From Oceanispirochaeta crateris (lineage in GTDB: Bacteria; Spirochaetota; Spirochaetia; DSM-2461): 64,000 nucleotides of DNA. The stretch is from contig NZ_CP036150.1 of assembly GCF_008329965.1 (NCBI RefSeq), forward strand, positions 62,001 to 126,000, given 5' to 3'. Both the position numbers and the translations under genes were made by a program. Positions 31,495 through 42,664 of this stretch are shown here, one piece after another. The notes under the pieces were generated by a model, which saw only the letters and a list, made by a program, of their open reading frames with translations, was not told the DNA's origin and did not search any database. Within the stretch, counting starts at the first letter, position 1. Each line of letters starts with the position of its first letter.

Positions 31495-31920
31495 GTGGCT
31501 CACCATATTGTATCCGGTTGTATTGGCTGTGGTGCCTGTAAGAGGATTTGTCCGACTCAGGCAATTTCAGGAGAGATGAAAACCATTCATATTATTGACA
31601 GCAAGCTCTGCATTGACTGTGGTTCCTGCGGACGGGTTTGTCCCAAGAATGCGGTGAGAACGGAACAGGGAGACATTGTTTTCAGGCTCAAGAGGGCCGA
31701 TTGGCTCCAGCCGCAAATCAGCCAAGAGCGCTGCTATGCCTGTGAAAACTGTGTTGTTGCCTGCCCTGTGGGTGCCTTGGCCATGAAGGATGAGACACTG
31801 CCTTTAACAGAAAATTATGCGGTTTTGGCTTCTCCAGAAACTTGTATCTCCTGTGGCTGGTGCTTCGATAATTGTCAGTTTGCTGCCATCACCATGGAGG
31901 TTCCCCATGCGAGTCATTAA
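31495..31920 (+). CDS. Polyferredoxin with four [4Fe-4S] motifs
   Basis: 141 residues containing four CxxCxxCxxxC motifs (CIGCGACKRIC, CIDCGSCGRVC, CYACENCVVAC, CISCGWCFDNC), enough for four [4Fe-4S] clusters. The start is GTG at 31495: AGGAGG lies 5 bases upstream, and the overlapping ATG at 31493 is in another, soon closed frame. The 3' end overlaps the AOR gene by 14 bases, so it is very likely the electron acceptor of that oxidoreductase. Confidence 0.93.
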   Translation: MAHHIVSGCIGCGACKRICPTQAISGEMKTIHIIDSKLCIDCGSCGRVCPKNAVRTEQGDIVFRLKRADWLQPQISQERCYACENCVVACPVGALAMKDETLPLTENYAVLASPETCISCGWCFDNCQFAAITMEVPHASH

Positions 31921-34249
31921 GGGGACATCCAACCGTTACCTGGACATTGATCTAACCACGGAAACCTGGTCTGTTTATACGGTGACCACAGAAGATCTGA
32001 CATCTTATCTGGGAGGGAAGGGGCTGGCTCTTAAAATCTTTTATGACCGGTTTGCTAAAGAAGAGTTGGCAGGAATCGATCCTTTCGGCCCCGAAAATAT
32101 AATCATCTTTTCCATGGGAGTCATGCTTTCATCCGGAGCGTCTTGTACGGGGCGTTTTGAAGTGCTGACAAAATCTCCTCAGACCGGTTTAATCGTGGGG
32201 TCCTCCTGCGGAGGATACTTCGGAGAGGCCTGCAAAACTGCCGGATGGGACGGTGTCATTATTTCCGGTAGGGCAGAGGGGCCACTTTGTCTGAGGATTG
32301 CCAAAGATGGTGTTCAATTCGAACCGGCCCATCATCTGTGGGGTCAGGGGACTCATGAAGTTCAAGAGTCATTGGAGCTGACACCCAAGGAGGGAGCCGC
32401 CGTCATCGGTCCCGCCGGTGAAAACCGGGTTCTATATGCCAACATTTGTTCTGGACATCGTTTTGCCGGGCGGGGTGGCATCGGGGCCGTCATGGGAGCC
32501 AAGAATCTCAAGGCCATTGTTGCCCGGGGCAAAGAAGTCAAGTATGAGCCGGTTCTTCAGAAACAGTTTTCAGACACAGTCCGCAAAGCCAAAAAATATA
32601 TATTGCGGAATCAAATGAGTCATAGAATGAGACTCTACGGAACCAATGCCAATACCCGGCCTGGCATTCAGCATGGGTTTTCTCCCGTTCGGAACTTCAG
32701 AGACCGTTTTCATCCCGATACAGAACAAATCAGCGGAGAAGCTATGGCGGAAAAATACACAACCCGCCACTCCACCTGCCGTCACTGTTCCATCCTTTGC
32801 GGCCATAAGGGACATTATCCCGATGGTGTCTTCAGGCAGATTCCCGAATATGAAACAGCAGGAATGTTCGGCAGTAATATCCATAATTTTGACAGTGATC
32901 TTATTGGCCGGTGGAATGAGGTTCTGAATGAACTGGGAATGGATACCATTTCGGCTGGGGGGACCATAGCCTGGGCCATGGAAGCAGGAGAAAAGGGACT
33001 CAGAGAGACGGAACTCCAGTTTGGCAGGACCGACAATATCGAGGCGGTATTGCGCCAAATCGCCTCGGGGAAAGGAGCCGAGGCCGAACTGGCCAAGGGG
33101 TCTAAAATTCTGAGTGAGCAGTACGGCGGCCAGGAATTTGCCATTCATGTGAAAGGCATTGAGATTGCGGCCTATGATCCCAGAGCCGCCTGGGGGCAGG
33201 GGCTGAGCTATGCCGTGCATAACAAAGGCGGTTGTCATTTGGGGTCTTACCTGATTGGACTGGAGCAGCTCATGGGCTATATGCCTCCCCATACAACACT
33301 TGGAAAAGCAGACTGGGTTATTTTCATGGAAGACATATACAGTGGGGTCAACTCTCTGCAGCTCTGTCAGTTCACGATTTACGGAATCCTCACCGAACCG
33401 GTCATCCCCAAGTATCTTCCTCGATTCCTTTTGAAAATCGCTACCATCACCCTGCCGAAAATAGCCATGTCACTCATGAACTGGAGTCTTCTAAGTCGTT
33501 TCTTCTGGTCCATCACCGGCATCAGGATGAATAAGTGGCAATTCCTAAAGGCAGGTGAGCGGATCAATAAACTGGAACGCTGGATGGATGTTCAAATGGG
33601 GCTGAAGGCCGCTGATGATACTCTGCCTGCCAGGTTTCTAAAGGAAAAAGAAACGGCCTATACCGGTAAGAATACGGTGGTCCCTATTGAAAAAATGGTG
33701 ACTCAGTACCATAGAAAACGTGGATATGATTCCACGGGAGGACCCAGTGATGGTGATCTTCAGAAAATTATGGATACTTCCCGCGGGAAAAGCCGCAGCA
33801 TAACAGTCCGCCCTTCGGGGCGCTTCTTTAAGACATTGTATTGCCGAATCGTTCTGGCAGTACTGGGCTGGTTCATTCCTGCTGTTGCCTGCCGGAAAAA
33901 ATCGGTTCAAGAAGAGGTCGTCACTTTCCCCGAAGGATTTTCCTTCAGTTTAGGAGTCTGGCCCTGCGGACCCTCTGTAACATTCCGCCGTAGAGGCAGG
34001 GGCCTTAAAAAGTCGGGGAAAACAGAAAGGGTGGATATGAGAGTCAGTTTAAAAAGTATAGAAGCTGCCTGGCTTCTCTTTTCCTTTCAGGAAAGTACCT
34101 GTCAGAGCGAGGCAAACGGGCGCTTGAGCGTAGAGGGAGAACTGCCCCATACCTGTACGTTTATCCGCTTTATGGATAAGGTCGAAATTCTCCTTTTGCC
34201 CCGTTTTATCGCCGAAAAAGCCGTTAAGAAGTGGGTGCCAGTCAAATGA
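31907..34249 (+). CDS. aor: Aldehyde:ferredoxin oxidoreductase (tungsten), with C-terminal extension
   Basis: Tungstopterin enzyme oxidising aldehydes to acids with reduction of ferredoxin. The ATG at 31907 has GGAGG 6 bases upstream. Of 780 residues the first 620 or so match the family: N-terminal GGKGLALKIFYD, GRGGIGAVMGAKNLKAI, the cluster ligands Cys291, Cys294, Cys298 and Cys487 (CRHCSILC and NSLQLC), and YDPRAAWGQGLSYA near the cofactor. The normal end (RKRGYDSTGGPSD) is followed by about 155 more residues with a hydrophobic patch and a region resembling an SCP-2 fold (GRLSVEGEL). The stop overlaps the ADH start (ATGA). Confidence 0.93.
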   Translation: MRVIKGTSNRYLDIDLTTETWSVYTVTTEDLTSYLGGKGLALKIFYDRFAKEELAGIDPFGPENIIIFSMGVMLSSGASCTGRFEVLTKSPQTGLIVGSSCGGYFGEACKTAGWDGVIISGRAEGPLCLRIAKDGVQFEPAHHLWGQGTHEVQESLELTPKEGAAVIGPAGENRVLYANICSGHRFAGRGGIGAVMGAKNLKAIVARGKEVKYEPVLQKQFSDTVRKAKKYILRNQMSHRMRLYGTNANTRPGIQHGFSPVRNFRDRFHPDTEQISGEAMAEKYTTRHSTCRHCSILCGHKGHYPDGVFRQIPEYETAGMFGSNIHNFDSDLIGRWNEVLNELGMDTISAGGTIAWAMEAGEKGLRETELQFGRTDNIEAVLRQIASGKGAEAELAKGSKILSEQYGGQEFAIHVKGIEIAAYDPRAAWGQGLSYAVHNKGGCHLGSYLIGLEQLMGYMPPHTTLGKADWVIFMEDIYSGVNSLQLCQFTIYGILTEPVIPKYLPRFLLKIATITLPKIAMSLMNWSLLSRFFWSITGIRMNKWQFLKAGERINKLERWMDVQMGLKAADDTLPARFLKEKETAYTGKNTVVPIEKMVTQYHRKRGYDSTGGPSDGDLQKIMDTSRGKSRSITVRPSGRFFKTLYCRIVLAVLGWFIPAVACRKKSVQEEVVTFPEGFSFSLGVWPCGPSVTFRRRGRGLKKSGKTERVDMRVSLKSIEAAWLLFSFQESTCQSEANGRLSVEGELPHTCTFIRFMDKVEILLLPRFIAEKAVKKWVPVK

Positions 34250-35916
34250 ATAAAACAGATGAAAAATATTTTAAACCGGCGGGAACCATCCTGTATGGCA
34301 GGGGTATGATCGCACAGCTTGCCTCCGAATTGGCTCTTCTGAACGTTGCCTGTCCCACTGTTCTCACAGAAGTGTCTCTCATGAAGAAGGCCCTCCGGGC
34401 CGCCCGTCAATTGGCTCCCGGTTTTGTTCAGTCTCTGGAGCTGACCTCGGCGTCTCCCAGTGAAAAATCCGATTTTCTGATCCTCGCAGGCGGGAGGGAT
34501 TTGGTCATGAAATATGCCTCAGATCCCCGTTCCAAGGCAATCATTCCCTTAAGTCCCTCTCATTTAGCCGAAATGGACAGTGCTGTTACCGATTATGGAG
34601 TTGATTTTCTGGTCATAGACCACCTTTTTATTCGCGAAGGGTCAGTGGTCGATAATTTTTTCAGAACCTACGCCTCGGCTGTTACATCTGGAGTAGCCCG
34701 CATGCCAGGTCCCTTGAATCTGCCTCGGGCCTTCTCCTACAGCTGCCGTACCAGGCTCTACAGCGGTCATGAATCCCTGGAAAATCTTCCCCGTATCCTC
34801 CGGGATAGAGGAGTGTTCCGGCCGCTGATTCTCACAGATAAGGGGATCGTTGCTGCCGGTCTTTTGAACATGGTCATCGAGGTTCTGGGTTCCATCGAAT
34901 ATGAGTTGTTCGATGACATTCCCGCCGATTCCAGTTCCCGTGTGGTCAATGATATCTCTTCCTTGCATACCCGGCAGAACAGAGATGGCCTTATTGCATT
35001 GGGGGGAGGGTCGGTTTTAGATACGGGGAAGGGGGTGTACCTGAATGTGTCCCTGGGAGCAGACGACTTGAGTGAATGGGCCGGATCCGGCCGGATTCCC
35101 CGTTTAGAGACTCCGTTTTTTACCATACCAACCACTTCCGGGACAGGTTCGGAAGTAACAAAAGTGGCTGTCATAGCCGATGATGTGCTGGAGCGGAAAA
35201 TCCTCTATGTTTCTACCAATCTGCAGCCGGATTTCGCCATTCTGGATAGCCGGCTCACGACCTCCTTACCTTCTTTTCTGACATCCATTACTGGTATGGA
35301 TGCCCTGTCCCATGCGGTGGAAGCCTTTACCTGTCTTGGGAAAAATCCTCTGAGTGATCAAATGGCCTGGACCGCCATTGAGTTGATCCGGGATCATCTT
35401 ATCCCCGGGGTGGATGATCCTCAGAATCGGGAACACAGGCTGCAGCTGGCCATTGCATCATCCTTGGCAGGGCAGGCCTTTTCCAACTCCATGGTGGGGA
35501 TGGTTCATTCCATTGGCCACTCCGTGGGGGCTTTGTGTCATGTTCCCCACGGAAGCTGTATGTCTATCCTGTTGCCCTATGCTCTGGAATATAATTTTAC
35601 GCCTATAGAACCACTTCTCTCGGATCTCCTGGGAGCATTGGCAGATCCTGATATCCTCGAAAATACAGCGGCGGAGGATAGGGCGGAGATGACGATTCAG
35701 ATTATCAGAACCATGAATCATATCCTCCGGGAAAAAACAGGAGGTCGTCATCCGGAACGATTCAGTCATCTCCTGAACAGGGAGGGAGTCCCCCTTGTTT
35801 CAAAAGAGCAGTTCCCTCGGATTGCTCTGACCACCATGGGGGATGCATCCATCGTTTATAATCCGGTCGATCTGGGATATGAAGAGATTCTGAAGGTCTT
35901 AGAGGAGAGTTACTGA
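34246..35916 (+). CDS. Iron-containing alcohol dehydrogenase with duplicated N-terminal segment
   Basis: 556 residues, against about 380-400 for the family. Residues from about 165 form a complete Fe-ADH: IALGGGSVLDTGKG, PTTSGTGSEVT, DALSHAVEAF and MVHSIGHSVGALCHVPHG, containing the metal-binding Asp/His set. The first 160 residues look like a second, partial copy of the ADH N-terminal domain, with a YGRGMIAQLASEL start similar to the internal YSGHESLENLPRIL. Coupling to the AOR gene suggests interconversion of the aldehyde and alcohol. The last 18 bases overlap the convergent MOSC gene. Confidence 0.9.
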   Translation: MNKTDEKYFKPAGTILYGRGMIAQLASELALLNVACPTVLTEVSLMKKALRAARQLAPGFVQSLELTSASPSEKSDFLILAGGRDLVMKYASDPRSKAIIPLSPSHLAEMDSAVTDYGVDFLVIDHLFIREGSVVDNFFRTYASAVTSGVARMPGPLNLPRAFSYSCRTRLYSGHESLENLPRILRDRGVFRPLILTDKGIVAAGLLNMVIEVLGSIEYELFDDIPADSSSRVVNDISSLHTRQNRDGLIALGGGSVLDTGKGVYLNVSLGADDLSEWAGSGRIPRLETPFFTIPTTSGTGSEVTKVAVIADDVLERKILYVSTNLQPDFAILDSRLTTSLPSFLTSITGMDALSHAVEAFTCLGKNPLSDQMAWTAIELIRDHLIPGVDDPQNREHRLQLAIASSLAGQAFSNSMVGMVHSIGHSVGALCHVPHGSCMSILLPYALEYNFTPIEPLLSDLLGALADPDILENTAAEDRAEMTIQIIRTMNHILREKTGGRHPERFSHLLNREGVPLVSKEQFPRIALTTMGDASIVYNPVDLGYEEILKVLEESY

Positions 35917-36330
35917 GTCGTCCTTTTTGATGATTCCAGATTCCTGAACAGTCATAAAACGAGCCGTTTTTGTCAGGGAACAGGATGATTTGCTCTTGAC
36001 AATTTCGCAGTCCGGCCAGCATTTTTTACCGCAGGAGGCTACCCTTAAAAGGGCATGGCCGACACGAATTTTTGCATCTTTTTTCAAGTCTTCAAGATTT
36101 AATCCCTCTATCTGCAGGGTCTCATTAAAGCGGCTGAAGCAGAGGCCGTTTCGGCTGTCGCCATCCACTTCAATTCTGTCTTCTCTGCGAAGGAGGCAAA
36201 CCTGTCTAGGGCCTGGACCCGAATTGACATCCCCTTCCAGACCAAAATCGGCCTTGAAAAAACCTTCTTGAATTTCTTCTCTTTGTTCCTGTTTGCTTTT
36301 TTTTATATAGATACCGGATACGGTTGCCAT
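35899..36330 (-). CDS. MOSC-domain protein
   Basis: 143-residue single-domain MOSC protein with the family Cys in SCGKKCWPDC and a degenerate version of the usual GDAH segment (GLEGDVNSGPGPRQVCLL). MOSC domains carry sulfur or bind molybdopterin cofactors. It is separated from mog by 166 bases that contain a good -10 (TATAAT, 36378-36373), so it may have its own promoter. A GGAGG site precedes the ATG. It overlaps the end of the convergent ADH gene. Confidence 0.85.
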   Translation of the reverse strand: MATVSGIYIKKSKQEQREEIQEGFFKADFGLEGDVNSGPGPRQVCLLRREDRIEVDGDSRNGLCFSRFNETLQIEGLNLEDLKKDAKIRVGHALLRVASCGKKCWPDCEIVKSKSSCSLTKTARFMTVQESGIIKKDDSVTLL

Positions 36331-36496: not shown

Positions 36497-36964
36497 TCAA
36501 TGACCTTCTCCCCTGAACATTTTTCCACTGTGATCCATGATCGGGATAAGGACTCTGGTACAGAGCCTGACGGCTTTGACTGAGCCGGGGAAATTCACGA
36601 CAATCGTCTGATTTTTAAGACCCGCATACCCTCTGGAAAGCATGGCTTGAGGGGTCTCCTTGTAGGATTCAAAACGGAGAATTTCGGCGATTCCCGGTAG
36701 TTCTGAATCACAAAACTCACGGCTAACATCGGGAGTCACATCCCGGGGGGATATGCCGGTACCACCCGTGGTGAGGATATAATCATCTCCCAGATTCTCA
36801 TCCAGTGCCTTGCGGATGGCCACGGCCTCATCAGGAACGATGACTCTGTTTATCCGACATTCCGGGTAGGCTTCCAGGAGGATCGATTCTATGACGGCTC
36901 CCGAGAGGTCTTCGTACTCACCACGGCTGGCCCTATCACTAGCGGTAATAACAGTCACTGTCAC
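36497..36964 (-). CDS. mog: Molybdopterin adenylyltransferase (Mog/MoaB family)
   Basis: Activates molybdopterin as the adenylate before metal insertion. The 155 residues have the motifs ITASDRASRGEYEDLSG, TTGGTGISPRDVTPD and NFPGSVKAV of the MogA/MoaB family. It overlaps the second MOSC gene by 26 bases. MoeA, which uses the product, is encoded upstream in the same operon. Confidence 0.92.
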   Translation of the reverse strand: MTVTVITASDRASRGEYEDLSGAVIESILLEAYPECRINRVIVPDEAVAIRKALDENLGDDYILTTGGTGISPRDVTPDVSREFCDSELPGIAEILRFESYKETPQAMLSRGYAGLKNQTIVVNFPGSVKAVRLCTRVLIPIMDHSGKMFRGEGH

Positions 36965-37382
36965 GGTTGATCATTCCTCCCTTGAGAACTTTGACAAAGA
37001 TTCCCTTGCGGGGCATCACACAGTCTCCTACTATTTGAAAGACGGCGCATCCGTGATGGCACTCCTTGCCTATCTGTGTTACTTCTACCTCACACTCTCC
37101 CAATTGCAGGCGAGTGCCTATGGGGAGCAGACTCAGGTCTATGCCTTCGGTGGTTAAATTTTCGGCAAAATCTCCAAATCCAAGTTCAATACCCTTTCCC
37201 TGCATGGTCTGAACATCTTCATTGGCCAACATGGAAATTTGTCTGTGCCAGTTCCCGGCGTGGGCGTCACCCACAATCCCGTGGTCCACCTTCAGCTCCA
37301 TGCTTTCCACCGGATGCTTCTGTTCTCCCTTCTTTTCAGAGATATTCAGAGAGAGTATTTTAAAGTGTTTTTCAGTATTCAT
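36939..37382 (-). CDS. MOSC-domain protein
   Basis: 147 residues with a better preserved MOSC core than the downstream copy: VDHGIVGDAHAGNWHRQISML, FAENLTTEGIDL, LQLGECEVEVTQIGKECHHGCAV. This small type is often found next to mog and moaC and is thought to help in cofactor sulfur or metal handling; the exact role is not known. It follows moaC by 49 bases and overlaps mog. Confidence 0.9.
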   Translation of the reverse strand: MNTEKHFKILSLNISEKKGEQKHPVESMELKVDHGIVGDAHAGNWHRQISMLANEDVQTMQGKGIELGFGDFAENLTTEGIDLSLLPIGTRLQLGECEVEVTQIGKECHHGCAVFQIVGDCVMPRKGIFVKVLKGGMINRDSDCYYR

Positions 37383-37431: not shown

Positions 37432-37881
37432 TTATCTGTGAGATTTCGTCTTTTCAAGGAGCTGTATGTCTCCAATCATCATCTTCTTGTCTACGGCCTT
37501 GCACATGTCGTAAACAGTGAGTGCCGCTACAGATACTGCTGTGAGGGCTTCCATTTCGATTCCCGTTTTATCGGTACAAACCGTTTTGGCAGTTATCCTG
37601 ACCCCATCTTCTTCTATTTGTAGTTCTAAAACGACCTGATCCATGGAAATATTATGACACAAAGGAATGAGGGACGACGTCTGTTTGGCAGCGATGACGC
37701 CGGCAATGTTGGCCGTTGTCAGGACATCGCCTTTTTGTATCTGATTGTCCTGAATGAGGGCCATTGTCTCGGGGGCACAAAATATCTTAGCTGTTGCCGT
37801 CGCGGTTCTGTGAATGACAGGCTTGGCAGAAACATCGACCATTCTGGCCTGACCATTGTCATCAATATGGGAGAGTTTCAT
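37432..37881 (-). CDS. moaC: Cyclic pyranopterin monophosphate synthase
   Basis: Converts the MoaA product to cPMP, the first stable molybdopterin precursor. The 149 residues contain GDVLTTANIAGVIAAKQT, LIPLCHN, TDKTGIEMEALTAVSVA and MCKAVDK, which hold the active-site Lys, His and Asp. It lies 3 bases after moaA. Confidence 0.95.
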   Translation of the reverse strand: MKLSHIDDNGQARMVDVSAKPVIHRTATATAKIFCAPETMALIQDNQIQKGDVLTTANIAGVIAAKQTSSLIPLCHNISMDQVVLELQIEEDGVRITAKTVCTDKTGIEMEALTAVSVAALTVYDMCKAVDKKMMIGDIQLLEKTKSHR

Positions 37882-37884
37882 TTG

Positions 37885-38688
37885 TTATCCTCCAATCTCC
37901 ACCATGTTTCTGGTGGAACAGCTGCTACCGCAGCGGGGTTTATTTTGTATGGCTTCTACAAGAGAAGACCTGATGTTGTTTGCGTTTAGGACTATTTCCT
38001 GATCTGAGTGGAGGCAGGGTTTGATCCGTCCGCTGGATAGTAATCTTATCCGGTTGCACTGTTCGCAGGGAGGAGGACGTTGGTAGATGATTTCTTCGTT
38101 TTGAAACTTATCTTCCTTCAGGGAGTACTCTCTGATTTTCTGCAATTCAATGCCTTTTTCTGAGCAGTAGGCCTTCATTTGATCCATTTCGGTTTGAGTG
38201 GTCTCTGATGAGATAACCATATTCAGCTTAACGGGGAAACCAACAGCGAGGGCCGCCTCGATACCCTTGATGACTCTGGAAATATCTCCTCCCCGAGTCA
38301 AATGAGCATAACGATGGGGGTCCAGTGTATCCAGTGATATATTAAGGCTGGACAGTCCCGCCTTCTTCAGGTCCGGGGCATACTGTTCCAGAAAATGACC
38401 ATTTGTTGTCATGCCCAGCAGTTTGAGTCCTTCTATTTCCGATAGCATGGATACCAGCTGAATGATCCCCTTTCGGACAAGGGGTTCTCCCCCTGTGAGA
38501 CGGATCTTGGTGATTCCCAGAGAGACCGCTTCACGGGCAACGGCTGCGATTTCTTCAAAGCTCATACAATCCTGGTGGTCTTTTTTTTCAATCCCCACTT
38601 CGGGCATGCAGTAGAGGCAGCGTAGATTGCAGCGGTCTGTCACGGATATGCGCAGATAGGTGATGTCTCTTTTATAGGAATCTAGCAT
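37885..38688 (-). CDS. moaA: GTP 3',8-cyclase, compact MoaA
   Basis: Radical-SAM enzyme of cofactor synthesis. The N-terminal CNLRCLYC cluster motif, GGEP-type LTGGEPLVRKG, the C-terminal CEQCN...PC motif (CX2CX13C) for the second cluster, and the final Gly-Gly are all present. Length is 267 residues against about 330 for most MoaA; the missing 50 or so residues lie between LNMVIS and the second cluster. The ATG at 38688 is preferred over a TTG at 38718. It overlaps moeA by 17 bases. Confidence 0.9.
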   Translation of the reverse strand: MLDSYKRDITYLRISVTDRCNLRCLYCMPEVGIEKKDHQDCMSFEEIAAVAREAVSLGITKIRLTGGEPLVRKGIIQLVSMLSEIEGLKLLGMTTNGHFLEQYAPDLKKAGLSSLNISLDTLDPHRYAHLTRGGDISRVIKGIEAALAVGFPVKLNMVISSETTQTEMDQMKAYCSEKGIELQKIREYSLKEDKFQNEEIIYQRPPPCEQCNRIRLLSSGRIKPCLHSDQEIVLNANNIRSSLVEAIQNKPRCGSSCSTRNMVEIGG

Positions 38689-39838
38689 GAACGATTGACC
38701 CTTCCTTGACTTCTTCAATTCCCTGATTCACGATTATCAGTCCCACCGCATCACCCATGGCATTGAGGTGAGATGATCCGCGATAGTCTAAGGGGTAGAT
38801 CTTTTCATCTCTGAATTGGACAGGAAGGAATTCCGAACGGTCCCAGTTTTTACGCTTGATGGTTTTCCCCAGGATGCCTCTCAAGATCTCCGGTTTGTAT
38901 TCCAGTCCGCAAAATTTGTAAATCAGGTGTTTTACGAAGACCTCGAAGAGGATGTACGTCGACACTGGATTTCCCGGCAGACCAAAGACAAAGCATGACT
39001 CATTGCGGCCGAACCAGAGGGGTTTTCCAGGCTTGATCGCCGCTTTATGAAAACTCTTTTTAACGCCCAATTTTTCAAGTGTCCCCGGTACAAAATCAAA
39101 TTCACCCATGGAGACCCCACCGGATAAAATAAGGATATCATTTTCGGATACTGCTTTCTCAATGGTTTTGAACAGACTCTGCTCGTCGTCGGGAATGATG
39201 CCATAGTAGCGGGCCGGGCAGCCTGCTTCCTTTGCCTGAGCCATGAGTTGCGGGCCATTGCTGTTGAAAATCTCCCCATCCTCGAGGATTTCTCCTGGTT
39301 CTTTGAGTTCTGAACCTGTGGTGACAATTCCAATGCGGGGCGGGAGGGAGACTAGAACCTCTTTCAGTCCCAGGGAGGCCATAATTCCTAAATCCGCCGG
39401 AGATATCCGCCGGGGGGAGAGTATTTTTTCACCGGTCTTATGGTTCTCGCCCTTGAAAATAATATTTCCAAGGGGTTCCTGTTCTACCAGGAAAATCTTG
39501 TTGTGTTCACGCCGGGTATATTCTATGCGGATGATTTTGCCGCATTCCTCTGGGATCTTCGCTCCTGTCATAATGGCCGTGCAAAATCCGGGTTTCAGTG
39601 GCTGTCTAGCTACATCCCCTGCAGCTACTGTTTCTGTCACAACCCAGGGACCCTTTTCATCACCGGTGCAAATCGCCCAACCATCCATGGCTGCCTTGTC
39701 AAATGGTGGAGAATCTATGGTGGATACCACTGGTTCGCAAAGAAATCCACCCAGAGAATCACTCAAGGGGAGAACCTTCTTCTGTATCCGTACACTTTGA
39801 GAGTCCAAAATAGAAAATATGTCTTTTATACTCAGCAT
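38672..39838 (-). CDS. moeA: Molybdopterin molybdenumtransferase
   Basis: Inserts molybdate or tungstate into adenylylated molybdopterin. The 388 residues include DKAAMDGWAI, TGAKIPEECGKIIRIE, GIVTTGSELKEPGE, LSGGVSMGEFDFVP and FGLPGNPVSTYILFE. In an operon with tungstate-type uptake and facing an AOR gene, it may handle tungsten; that is inference. It follows the end of the tupC coding region by 25 bases. Confidence 0.95.
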   Translation of the reverse strand: MLSIKDIFSILDSQSVRIQKKVLPLSDSLGGFLCEPVVSTIDSPPFDKAAMDGWAICTGDEKGPWVVTETVAAGDVARQPLKPGFCTAIMTGAKIPEECGKIIRIEYTRREHNKIFLVEQEPLGNIIFKGENHKTGEKILSPRRISPADLGIMASLGLKEVLVSLPPRIGIVTTGSELKEPGEILEDGEIFNSNGPQLMAQAKEAGCPARYYGIIPDDEQSLFKTIEKAVSENDILILSGGVSMGEFDFVPGTLEKLGVKKSFHKAAIKPGKPLWFGRNESCFVFGLPGNPVSTYILFEVFVKHLIYKFCGLEYKPEILRGILGKTIKRKNWDRSEFLPVQFRDEKIYPLDYRGSSHLNAMGDAVGLIIVNQGIEEVKEGSIVHARFL

Positions 39839-39863: not shown

Positions 39864-40849
39864 TTAGTATAATTTCAAAGAGGATGGATTGAACAGAATA
39901 TTCACTTCATCACCGACATTCAAGTTTAGCAAGGTCAAGGCCGTACTGCTAGTTCTTGCCTTCAGGGTTATCCCGGAATCCAGGGTTAGAGTAAACCATC
40001 CTTCCTTGTAGGGAACCATGGATACCAGTGTTCCTTTGATCTGATTACTCGTATCGTTTTCATTCGATTCTCTGGTCAGGGAGATGCTCTCGGGGGGATT
40101 ACCAGGGTTGTGTAGTTTCCCTCATGGGAAGGACAGCGGAAGCAGAAGTCTCCGGTTTTGAAGTCGGAATGCAAACCATCTTGAAAGCTGTATTCTCCCT
40201 TGAAGATATTTTCATCATGACAGACGGGAGAACCCTGATACATATCGATAAGAACATCTGAAGTCCTGTAGGCAAAACCTTTGTGATGAGAGCATAAAAT
40301 GATGGTGATGCCTTCTTCTTTCAGGGAGAGAATCAATTTTTCCAGCTCCCCCGACGTCTTACTATCGATGTTACCATCGGGTTCGTCCAGGAGCAGCACA
40401 TCGGGAGAAGCCATCAGAGCCCTGGCTATGGCCACCCGTTTCATCTCTCCTCCCGATAGGTTTCGGGCTTTTCGTTTTTCAAAACCCTCCAGACCGACGA
40501 GGGCCAGTTTTTCCCTGACAAGATCTTCTCCATTCTCTGTTTGAATGTTTAAAAATCGTAGTGGACTCATCAGGTTCTGATGGACAGAACTATGAAAGAG
40601 ATAGGGTTCCTGCTGTACCAGCACAGCTCTCAACCCTTCATCATGAATGATCTCACCCTTTTGAGGCTTCATAAGGCCCGCCAAAATTTTGAGAAGAGTC
40701 GTCTTACCCGACCCGTTATGGCCTCTGATGGTGGTAACCAATCCTTTACTGATTGTCAGTTCTGGAATGTCCAGAGCTTTTTTCTGACTTCCTGCTGTTT
40801 GAGGATAGGAATATTCCAAGTTTTTGATGTTATAGAGGATCTTATTCAT
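39864..40849 (-). CDS. tupC: Tungstate/molybdate ABC transporter ATPase, frameshifted before its TOBE domain
   Basis: ATP-binding subunit of the oxyanion importer. The uninterrupted part (40849 to 40076) has Walker A GHNGSGKTTLL, signature LSGGEMKRVAIARAL and Walker B VLLLDEPDGNID. The frame then ends early, but one base back at the C6 run (G6 at 40092-40097 on the plus strand) reading continues as VIPPESISLTRE and a TOBE domain (NQIKGTLVSMV, LKARTSSTAL, GDEVNILFN) to a TAA at 39864. The whole would be about 328 residues, as expected for ModC/TupC proteins with a metal-sensing C terminus. The slip may be a sequencing undercall, a mutation or programmed. Confidence 0.88.
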
Positions 40850-41519
40850 TGCGAACTGCCAGATGGATGAGGAAATTCAGGGTAAAGGCGATGATCATGA
40901 GAATTATTCCCAAAGCCAGCCCCAGTTCAAATTCCCCTTTGCTTGTTTGTAGGGATATGGTGGTTGTGATTGTCCTGGTGTACCAGCGGATATTGCCGCC
41001 GAGCATCATGGACACTCCTACCTCTCCAATGGCTCTGCCGAAACCGGCGAGCACCGCCGAAAGGATGGGACCCTTCATTTCGCTGACCATCATGGAGGTG
41101 TAGTGAATGCCATTGGCTCCAAGAGTCTGGAGAGTCTCTGGCAGGCGGGGGTCCATATTTGAGACACTTCCATAAACCATGGAGGTCACAATGGGCAGAA
41201 CCAAAATCACCTGACCCAGTATGATCGCAGCGGGTGTAAAAAGCATACCCATAGATCCAAAGGGGCCGGATCGGCTGATAAGAGAGTAGATGAGCAGGCC
41301 AACAACCACTGTGGGCAGAGCCATCAGGCTGTTGACGATCACAAGGATCAGCTTCCGTCCGGGAAAAGACTTCAGTTTGAGAAGAAATCCCAGAGGAATC
41401 CCAATAACAGAAGCTAATGCGATGGAAGAAGCCGAAAAACGCAAAGATCTGAGGCAGATGGAAAACAATTCACTGTCTCCCGATAATATCAGTTTGACCG
41501 CTTCTCCCAGGGCAGACAT
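40842..41519 (-). CDS. tupB: Tungstate/molybdate ABC transporter permease
   Basis: 225-residue permease with five to six membrane segments and the EAA-type loop (LPETLQTLGANGIHY to GRAIGEVGVSMMLGG) that contacts the ATPase. The family resemblance is to TupB rather than ModB. It starts directly after tupA and overlaps tupC by 8 bases. Confidence 0.92.
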   Translation of the reverse strand: MSALGEAVKLILSGDSELFSICLRSLRFSASSIALASVIGIPLGFLLKLKSFPGRKLILVIVNSLMALPTVVVGLLIYSLISRSGPFGSMGMLFTPAAIILGQVILVLPIVTSMVYGSVSNMDPRLPETLQTLGANGIHYTSMMVSEMKGPILSAVLAGFGRAIGEVGVSMMLGGNIRWYTRTITTTISLQTSKGEFELGLALGIILMIIAFTLNFLIHLAVRNE

Positions 41520-42350
41520 TTATTTTAAAGCGTCCGCATAGAAGAGGGGTTCACCATTCTTCTTAAATTCTCTGATAATGGACTGGCCTTCGGGTCCTGT
41601 GAGGAAGGTGATGAAGGACATGGCACCTTCGTAGTCTACATGTTCATGAAGGTCAGGGTTTACGGCAATCACACCGTAGGGGTTAAAAAGGACGGGGTCT
41701 CCCTCTACCAGGACTGATAAATCCAGGTTGTCCTTCATTGCCAGCCAGGTGCCTCTGTCGGTCAGGGTATATCCCTGAATCTCATTGGTCATTGTTAGTA
41801 CAGATCCCATGCCCTGTCCGGTTTCCTTATACCAGGTTCCGGAGGGGGTCATACCTGCTGTATTCCAGAGACTGAGCTCCTTGGTATGAGTTCCTGAATC
41901 GTCTCCTCTGGATAAAAAGTCCTGTTGAGCCGCTGCAATGGCACTGAGGGCTTCGGCAGCACTGGTCATGCCTTTGATCCCTGCAGGATCAGAATCGGGT
42001 CCCAGTATAACAAAGTCGTTATGCATTACATCCCTTCGATTCACACCGTAACCGGCTTCAACAAAGGCGTCTTCCTTACTGCGGGCATGGACAAGAATGA
42101 CATCCACGTCACCATTTTCTCCGTGGGCTATAGCCTTGCCTGTTCCAACGGCGATAACATCTACCTGAATATTGGTCTTTTCCTTGAATGCAGGAAGAAG
42201 TTCAGCCAGGAGGCCGGTGTTTTCCGTACTGGTTGTTGTTGCCAGTTTGATGTGGGTTGATTCTTCGTACTGACCTTCGGCGCTCAGTCCAGCAGTCAGG
42301 GTGAAACATAGAGCCAGCAGAAGAGCAGGCATTTTCCATTTAGTTGACAT
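41520..42350 (-). CDS. tupA: Tungstate/molybdate-binding periplasmic protein
   Basis: Solute-binding protein of the importer. The 276 residues start with a cleavable signal peptide (MPALLLALCFTLTAGLSA). TupA hallmarks are LATTTSTENTGLL at the mature N terminus and LSRGDDSGTHTKE in the middle, the segments that bind the oxyanion. The ATG at 42350 follows GGAGATATTT; longer in-frame extensions upstream would run through the leader structure and lack a ribosome site. First gene of the operon. Confidence 0.93.
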   Translation of the reverse strand: MSTKWKMPALLLALCFTLTAGLSAEGQYEESTHIKLATTTSTENTGLLAELLPAFKEKTNIQVDVIAVGTGKAIAHGENGDVDVILVHARSKEDAFVEAGYGVNRRDVMHNDFVILGPDSDPAGIKGMTSAAEALSAIAAAQQDFLSRGDDSGTHTKELSLWNTAGMTPSGTWYKETGQGMGSVLTMTNEIQGYTLTDRGTWLAMKDNLDLSVLVEGDPVLFNPYGVIAVNPDLHEHVDYEGAMSFITFLTGPEGQSIIREFKKNGEPLFYADALK

Positions 42351-42463
42351 AAATATCTCCAATAAGTTGCTTCGTTTTGTTTCTTGCTGCACTGCTGACA
42401 GGCACCAAATATACAAAACTGAAGGGTATTGAAGGCAGGAGAGATCAATTTCAAGGGTCTCCC

Positions 42464-42622
42464 AATCTTCAATTGAATGAATCTTTGAGTGATCCTGAAG
42501 GTACGATGATGTTCTCCGCCTTTCCACAATGGGAGGCTCGTCAGTTTCCAGACAAACCCAAACGGCTTTGGTCCCTTGTCGCTCTGGGTCGGTTTAGGGA
42601 TTTCGGCTCGGCGTTGAAGATT
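42464..42622 (-). promoter_or_regulatory. Putative Moco/Tuco riboswitch in the tup-moe-moa leader
   Basis: On the minus strand a 9-base 5' arm (AATCTTCAA, 42622-42614) pairs perfectly with a 3' arm (TTGAAGATT, 42472-42464), closing a domain of about 160 bases. Inside are a CCAAA-GCCG-UUUGG hairpin, a UCCCU/AGGGA pair, and GCCTCCC (42537-42531) followed by GGAAAGGC (42525-42518), a nested hairpin like the core I recall from the Escherichia coli moaA Moco RNA. A possible GGAGA/UCUCC stem follows and may be the expression platform. The match is from memory and by eye. Confidence 0.55.
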
Positions 42623-42635
42623 TGTAACATGAATT

Positions 42636-42664
42636 TTTATGGATAACAACATAAAATAATCCAA
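42636..42664 (-). promoter_or_regulatory. Promoter of the tup-moe-moa operon
   Basis: On the minus strand TTGGAT (42664-42659) and CATAAA (42641-42636) are 17 bases apart. The predicted start falls only about 6-8 bases before the first arm of the leader structure, which is where a riboswitch transcript should begin. Confidence 0.55.

Follow-up and report, generated by a model that had tools for sequence, protein, structure and literature searches.

A P3-less RF01055 leader with a predicted displaced translational platform before the tup operon of Oceanispirochaeta crateris

The window (the whole 64,000-nucleotide stretch of the Oceanispirochaeta crateris genome that was analysed) carries on its minus strand a cluster of molybdenum and tungsten genes, tupABC-moeA-moaAC-mogA, downstream of an RNA of family RF01055 (Table 1). 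Characterised TupA proteins prefer tungstate. In the PDB, the window TupA comes closest to 3lr1 (E 6.5e-86), a periplasmic protein annotated as tungstate-binding. The genes from tup to the MOSC proteins apparently form one transcript. The frame change in tupC (window 39865-40100) adjoins a CCCCCC run and may be a sequencing error or a real mutation; the C-terminal remainder, in the other frame, matches intact relatives of 325-341 amino acids. On the plus strand, two genes converge on the tup operon, one iron alcohol dehydrogenase-like and the other encoding an aldehyde:ferredoxin oxidoreductase (AOR). The initial annotation had taken this opposing AOR as a sign of tungsten; the enzyme is real by its domains, but it lies outside the control of the window RNA.

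Table 1. Genes and RNA elements of the tup locus (positions in the window)
Feature	Position	Strand	Evidence
Probable promoter, TTGTTA (42649-42644) - 17 nt - TACAAA (42626-42621)	42621..42649	-	sequence and conserved spacing
RF01055 aptamer (Moco/Tuco), without P3	42501..42625	-	51.5 bits, gathering cut-off 36
P1 5' strand, CGCC	42610..42613	-	RF01055 alignment and sequence
P1 3' strand, GGCG	42517..42520	-	RF01055 alignment and sequence
Switching strand, AAGGCGGAGA (core and P1 3' strand), can pair with element E	42513..42522	-	folding and comparison
Element E, TCTCCTGCCTTCAATA	42427..42442	-	GCCTTYAATA in 6/6 leaders
Element E 3' part, CTTCAATA, pairs with SD box	42434-42427	-	
SD box, TATTGGAG; predicted to be masked by E in the locked-aptamer state	42357..42364	-	
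tupA, tungstate-binding protein, ATG start 42350	41520..42350	-	PF12849; NF041772 TupA 238.8 bits (cut-off 400, missed)
tupB, permease	40842..41519	-	NF041773 2.5e-62, under its cut-off
tupC, ATPase; frame broken near end, rest to ~39865 in another frame	40076..40849	-	NF041774 1.1e-31
moeA	38672..39838	-	
moaA	37885..38718	-	TIGR02666 1e-75
moaC	37432..37881	-	TIGR00581 3.1e-58
MOSC-domain protein	36939..37382	-	
mogA/moaB-like	36497..36964	-	TIGR00177
Second MOSC-like protein, probably final gene of the unit	35899..36330	-	
AOR, opposing, not under the window RNA	31817..34249	+	PF01314 4.2e-103, PF02730

The RF01055 covariance model, run on the minus strand as the initial annotation had suggested, matches the leader directly before tupA at full length (model positions 1-135) and far over its cut-off (E 2.1e-9 in the 64-kb window), which bears out the proposed Moco/Tuco family and its position; this is the sole match to the family in the window. 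The 3' end of the aptamer lies about 150 bases upstream of the tupA start codon. P1, P2, P4 and P5 and the conserved junction letters are found, with mismatches in the outer pairs of P1 and the middle pairs of P2. P4 bears a GAAA loop, and the P2 receptor has one half intact (CCTAA), the other reading ACAAGG against TATGG. P3 is missing, a few bases separating P2 from P4. The GCCTCCC...GGAAAGGC core picked out earlier (42537-42518) is the conserved segment of the family, but the enclosed span of about 160 bases proposed with it does not hold: the aptamer measures 125 nt, and the switching parts reach 42350, past the region first delimited.

The window RNA resembles the RF01055 RNA of the E. 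coli moaA type in core sequence, P1, P2, P4 with its GAAA loop and P5, in preceding genes of cofactor synthesis and transport, and in its predicted repression. It differs in the lack of P3, in a P2 weakened by mismatches, in a P5 loop (CCCATTGTGG) one base shorter than the usual CCCGTGTTTGG, and in an SD box that begins 161 nt past the start of the core, whereas that of the moaA type lies inside P1; the switch of the window RNA is predicted to be carried by the separate element E. The leader is a clear new member of the RF01055 class, P3-less and with a predicted displaced translational platform. With the P3-less "Tuco" variant (Regulski et al. 2008, PMC2408646) it shares the absence of P3, which places it in the Tuco type by the 2008 criterion, and a tungstate transporter downstream; the text of that paper does not name spirochaetes, and its P3 rule fails on the larger tupABC-linked set described below.

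The 17-bp-spaced promoter of the initial annotation stands as to its letters and falls below the threshold of a sigma-70 consensus scan of the leader. Its distance to P1 is identical in four of six related leaders (window, G002a, G003 and G020), and three of the related leaders have, at the same spacing, -35-like boxes (TTGTTA, TTGTTT, TTGACC) and -10-like boxes (TAAATT, TATTAA, TAGAAA). The RNA would begin at P1 or just upstream if this promoter is used. The 9-bp closing helix AATCTTCAA/TTGAAGATT (42622-42614 with 42472-42464) also exists in the letters, and 9 bp were reached in 12 of 2000 shuffles; the best helices found when a counterpart was sought in the five related leaders have 5-6 bp and lie in unrelated places. 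As none of the five has a counterpart, this helix falls outside the conserved structure, and, since its 5' arm lies directly next to the -10 box, probably outside the transcript as well. It was rejected as the conserved P1 and, judged from the sequence comparison, is a local coincidence.

Of 395 genomes of the class, five, from two genera, contain a subtype of such leaders defined by a letters-only pattern; a sixth match has two mismatches. Six related leaders were compared (G000, the source genome, with G002, which has two, G003, G020 and G007). All six contain the GCCTTYAATA of element E, at core-to-SD distances from 48 nt (G007) to 161 nt. The 5' part of E can form 10 bp with one bulge with the switching strand, and its 3' part can form 8 bp with the SD box; these pairings overlap at CTT and are mutually exclusive. 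Across the six leaders the aptamer-E helix is paired in 95% of cells, versus 40-55% when slid, with two pairs changed on both sides (G-C to A-U), a covariation not beyond all shuffles, and with two pairs missing in G020. The E-SD helix is paired in 100% of cells, versus 36-64% when slid, and is almost invariant, so its support is conservation and not covariation.

Folding of the window leader gives the aptamer-E helix a probability of 0.85. When the stretch from P1 to the start codon is folded, the SD box is unpaired with probability 0.31 with the aptamer free versus 0.05 with it locked; this probability falls upon locking in every one of the six leaders, and the SD box is still partly paired in the free state in most of them. 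Shuffled aptamer-SD stretches reach the observed pairing of the aptamer with downstream sequence in 0-3% of cases for five leaders and 10% for the sixth. In the window leader by itself, 10% of shuffles attain the observed duplex energy for aptamer-E, and 68% do so for E-SD; as this per-leader test is weak, ensemble and comparative tests were used.

These pairings suggest that, without ligand, the switching strand pairs with E, leaving the SD box free and tupA translated. With ligand, P1 and the core would be held in the aptamer and E released, so that CTTCAATA would pair with TATTGGAG and bury the ribosome-binding site. Plentiful cofactor would then lower translation of tupA and, with it, of tupBC-moeA-moaAC-MOSC-mogA. 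The direction is modelled on the E. coli moaA RNA, which represses when Moco is present (PMC2408646); by analogy, ligand binding would repress here too. Repression of tup-moe-moa had been proposed from the outset, and the conserved two-way pairing, as computed, would accomplish it by hiding the ribosome-binding site; a translational OFF switch is the likely mechanism. In many relatives the ribosome-binding site lies within the 3' strand of the aptamer itself (GGAAAGGAG a few bases upstream of the start).

RF01055 was matched 56 times in the 61 sampled genomes, 26 of which carry it; across the class, 82 of 395 genomes do so. Among the sampled relatives, tupA is preceded by an RNA of the family lacking P3 in nine further genomes and by a P3-bearing one in seven, and such RNAs precede tupA in many other phyla too; more than half of 60 loci of TupA homologues from many phyla have one before tupA, some of the upstream stretches being too short to tell. 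No paper on the Moco riboswitches of spirochaetes, or on P3 upstream of tupA, emerged from a literature search, which does not prove that there is none.

In the 2008 paper, P3-bearing RNAs were found only with molybdenum and MPT genes and P3-less RNAs mostly with tungsten genes (PMC2408646). This rule fails for the tup-linked RNAs compared here: P3 is present in 18 of 46 classified tupA-linked RNAs across phyla (the P3 state of several long RNAs being assigned by folding and by eye), and its state changes at least seven times on the TupA tree, the P3-bearing L085 (G016) falling inside the seven-row clade of the window TupA (SH-aLRT 98, quick tree). Thus, P3 alone cannot identify the metal, and assignment of the metal from P3 was rejected. 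Within the spirochaete sample P3 occurs before tup in 7 of 17 cases versus 1 of 39 before other genes (Fisher p 0.0006, for sequences that are related), and is absent from all 15 AOR-linked RNAs and all 11 RNAs before an operon of a binding protein, a PF00174-like protein and a permease. The TTTS motif, a mark of tungstate-binding TupA, is found in 17 of 18 P3-linked and 24 of 28 P3-less TupA proteins. The chances are about even that P3, which comes and goes before orthologous tup genes, is no metal discriminator of the class, so that any metal selectivity would have to reside in another part of the aptamer, and that this spirochaete clade moved the switch from P1 to a displaced platform.

The most probable reading (about 0.7) is that the leader is a P3-less RF01055 riboswitch that senses a pyranopterin cofactor of molybdenum or, most probably, of tungsten, and lowers translation of the tupA operon. 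The aptamer might instead govern transcription elongation, through intrinsic or Rho-dependent termination. Translational and transcription-terminating platforms are both described for the class (PMC2408646), and about 160 nt from core to SD box makes a long leader, but a terminator scan of the leader found no terminator-like site, in each of the six leaders element E is an exact pairing partner of the SD box, and the 48 nt of the G007 leader are also against this view, which makes termination unlikely. That the RNA is a degenerate, non-functional remnant of the family, lying before tupA by chance, is very improbable: the core letters and element E are preserved, five genomes of two genera retain the subtype, and the promoter position is conserved. 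What speaks for decay is a score of 51.5 bits, below most relatives (mostly 55-86 bits), the weak P2 with its altered receptor half, the broken frame of tupC in the assembly, and a near relative (L084, TupA 73% identical) with no RF01055 leader before tupA.

The metal is the less certain part of the riboswitch reading. The source genome (4.01 Mb, one contig) encodes two AOR, five PF02738 (XDH-type) and two PF00384 (bis-MGD-type) enzymes, the latter two kinds usually containing molybdenum, and a search of it for the modA family gave no match. Thus, both metals may be used, with tup maybe the main oxyanion importer, and a flat claim for tungsten is weakened. That the same riboswitch senses the molybdenum cofactor, or both, while tup is simply the main importer of molybdenum and tungsten oxyanions, is possible, if rather unlikely; it is favoured by these gene counts, by P3 being uninformative, and by a riboswitch-controlled AOR elsewhere in the genome that is YdhV-like, a type reported for E. 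coli to be a molybdoenzyme carrying bis-Mo-MPT (PMC9103625). Against it are the tungstate-binding annotation of the TupA relative of known structure and the agreement of the P3-less form with the published Tuco correlation (PMC2408646). The preference of the initial annotation for Tuco over Moco therefore keeps the absence of P3 on its side, but the helix test on which it relied does not discriminate, and the XDH-type and bis-MGD-type genes weigh against it. Judged from the genes and sequences, tungsten is the likely metal.

The founding work on the class did not demonstrate direct ligand binding, the cofactor being unstable (PMC2408646); the spirochaetes add several members per genome to that class. 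RNAs with and without P3 at orthologous tup genes form natural pairs (e.g. G016 versus G007 and G020, within one genus), which make discrimination between molybdenum and tungsten directly testable with reporters.

The source genome has three RF01055 matches, all without P3. One (G000:C1:220674) precedes a ferredoxin and the YdhV-like AOR (1087.7 bits, cut-off 868) in an operon (L034:4811-9600) that also includes, by eye, TorD-, FdhD- and TatC-like genes. Another (G000:C1:2948420) precedes an operon for a binding protein of the sugar type, an exported PF00174-like protein and a double ABC permease; this operon (L033:2021-7061, G000:C1:2948420-2953460), whose binding protein is an SBP_bac_8 member and whose permease is of the MalF/MalG type, is found downstream of P3-less RF01055 RNAs in some ten genomes of spirochaetes. 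The PF00174-like protein has no cysteine common to ten homologues and thus no conserved cysteine ligand of the sulfite-oxidase kind; the operon possibly serves uptake of a molybdenum or tungsten compound or of a pterin.

Other genes and arrangements are associated with the family in relatives. The second subtype copy of G002 (L035:265-388, G002:C146, minus strand) lies, by eye, before a metal-free aldehyde dehydrogenase-like gene, and an RF01055 RNA is likewise upstream of an Aldedh gene at G026:C1:6328; an RNA so placed could exchange a cofactor-free enzyme for the tungsten or molybdenum one when cofactor is short. A P3-bearing RNA precedes a transporter of the FecCD/Peripla_BP_2 type (L039:6308-9935, G004:C1:214307), which may be a siderophore-type transporter that imports molybdate. 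Tandem RF01055 aptamers precede tupA at L091:993-1270 and L092:1186-1464, and the tandem of L124 consists of one P3-bearing and one P3-less RNA.
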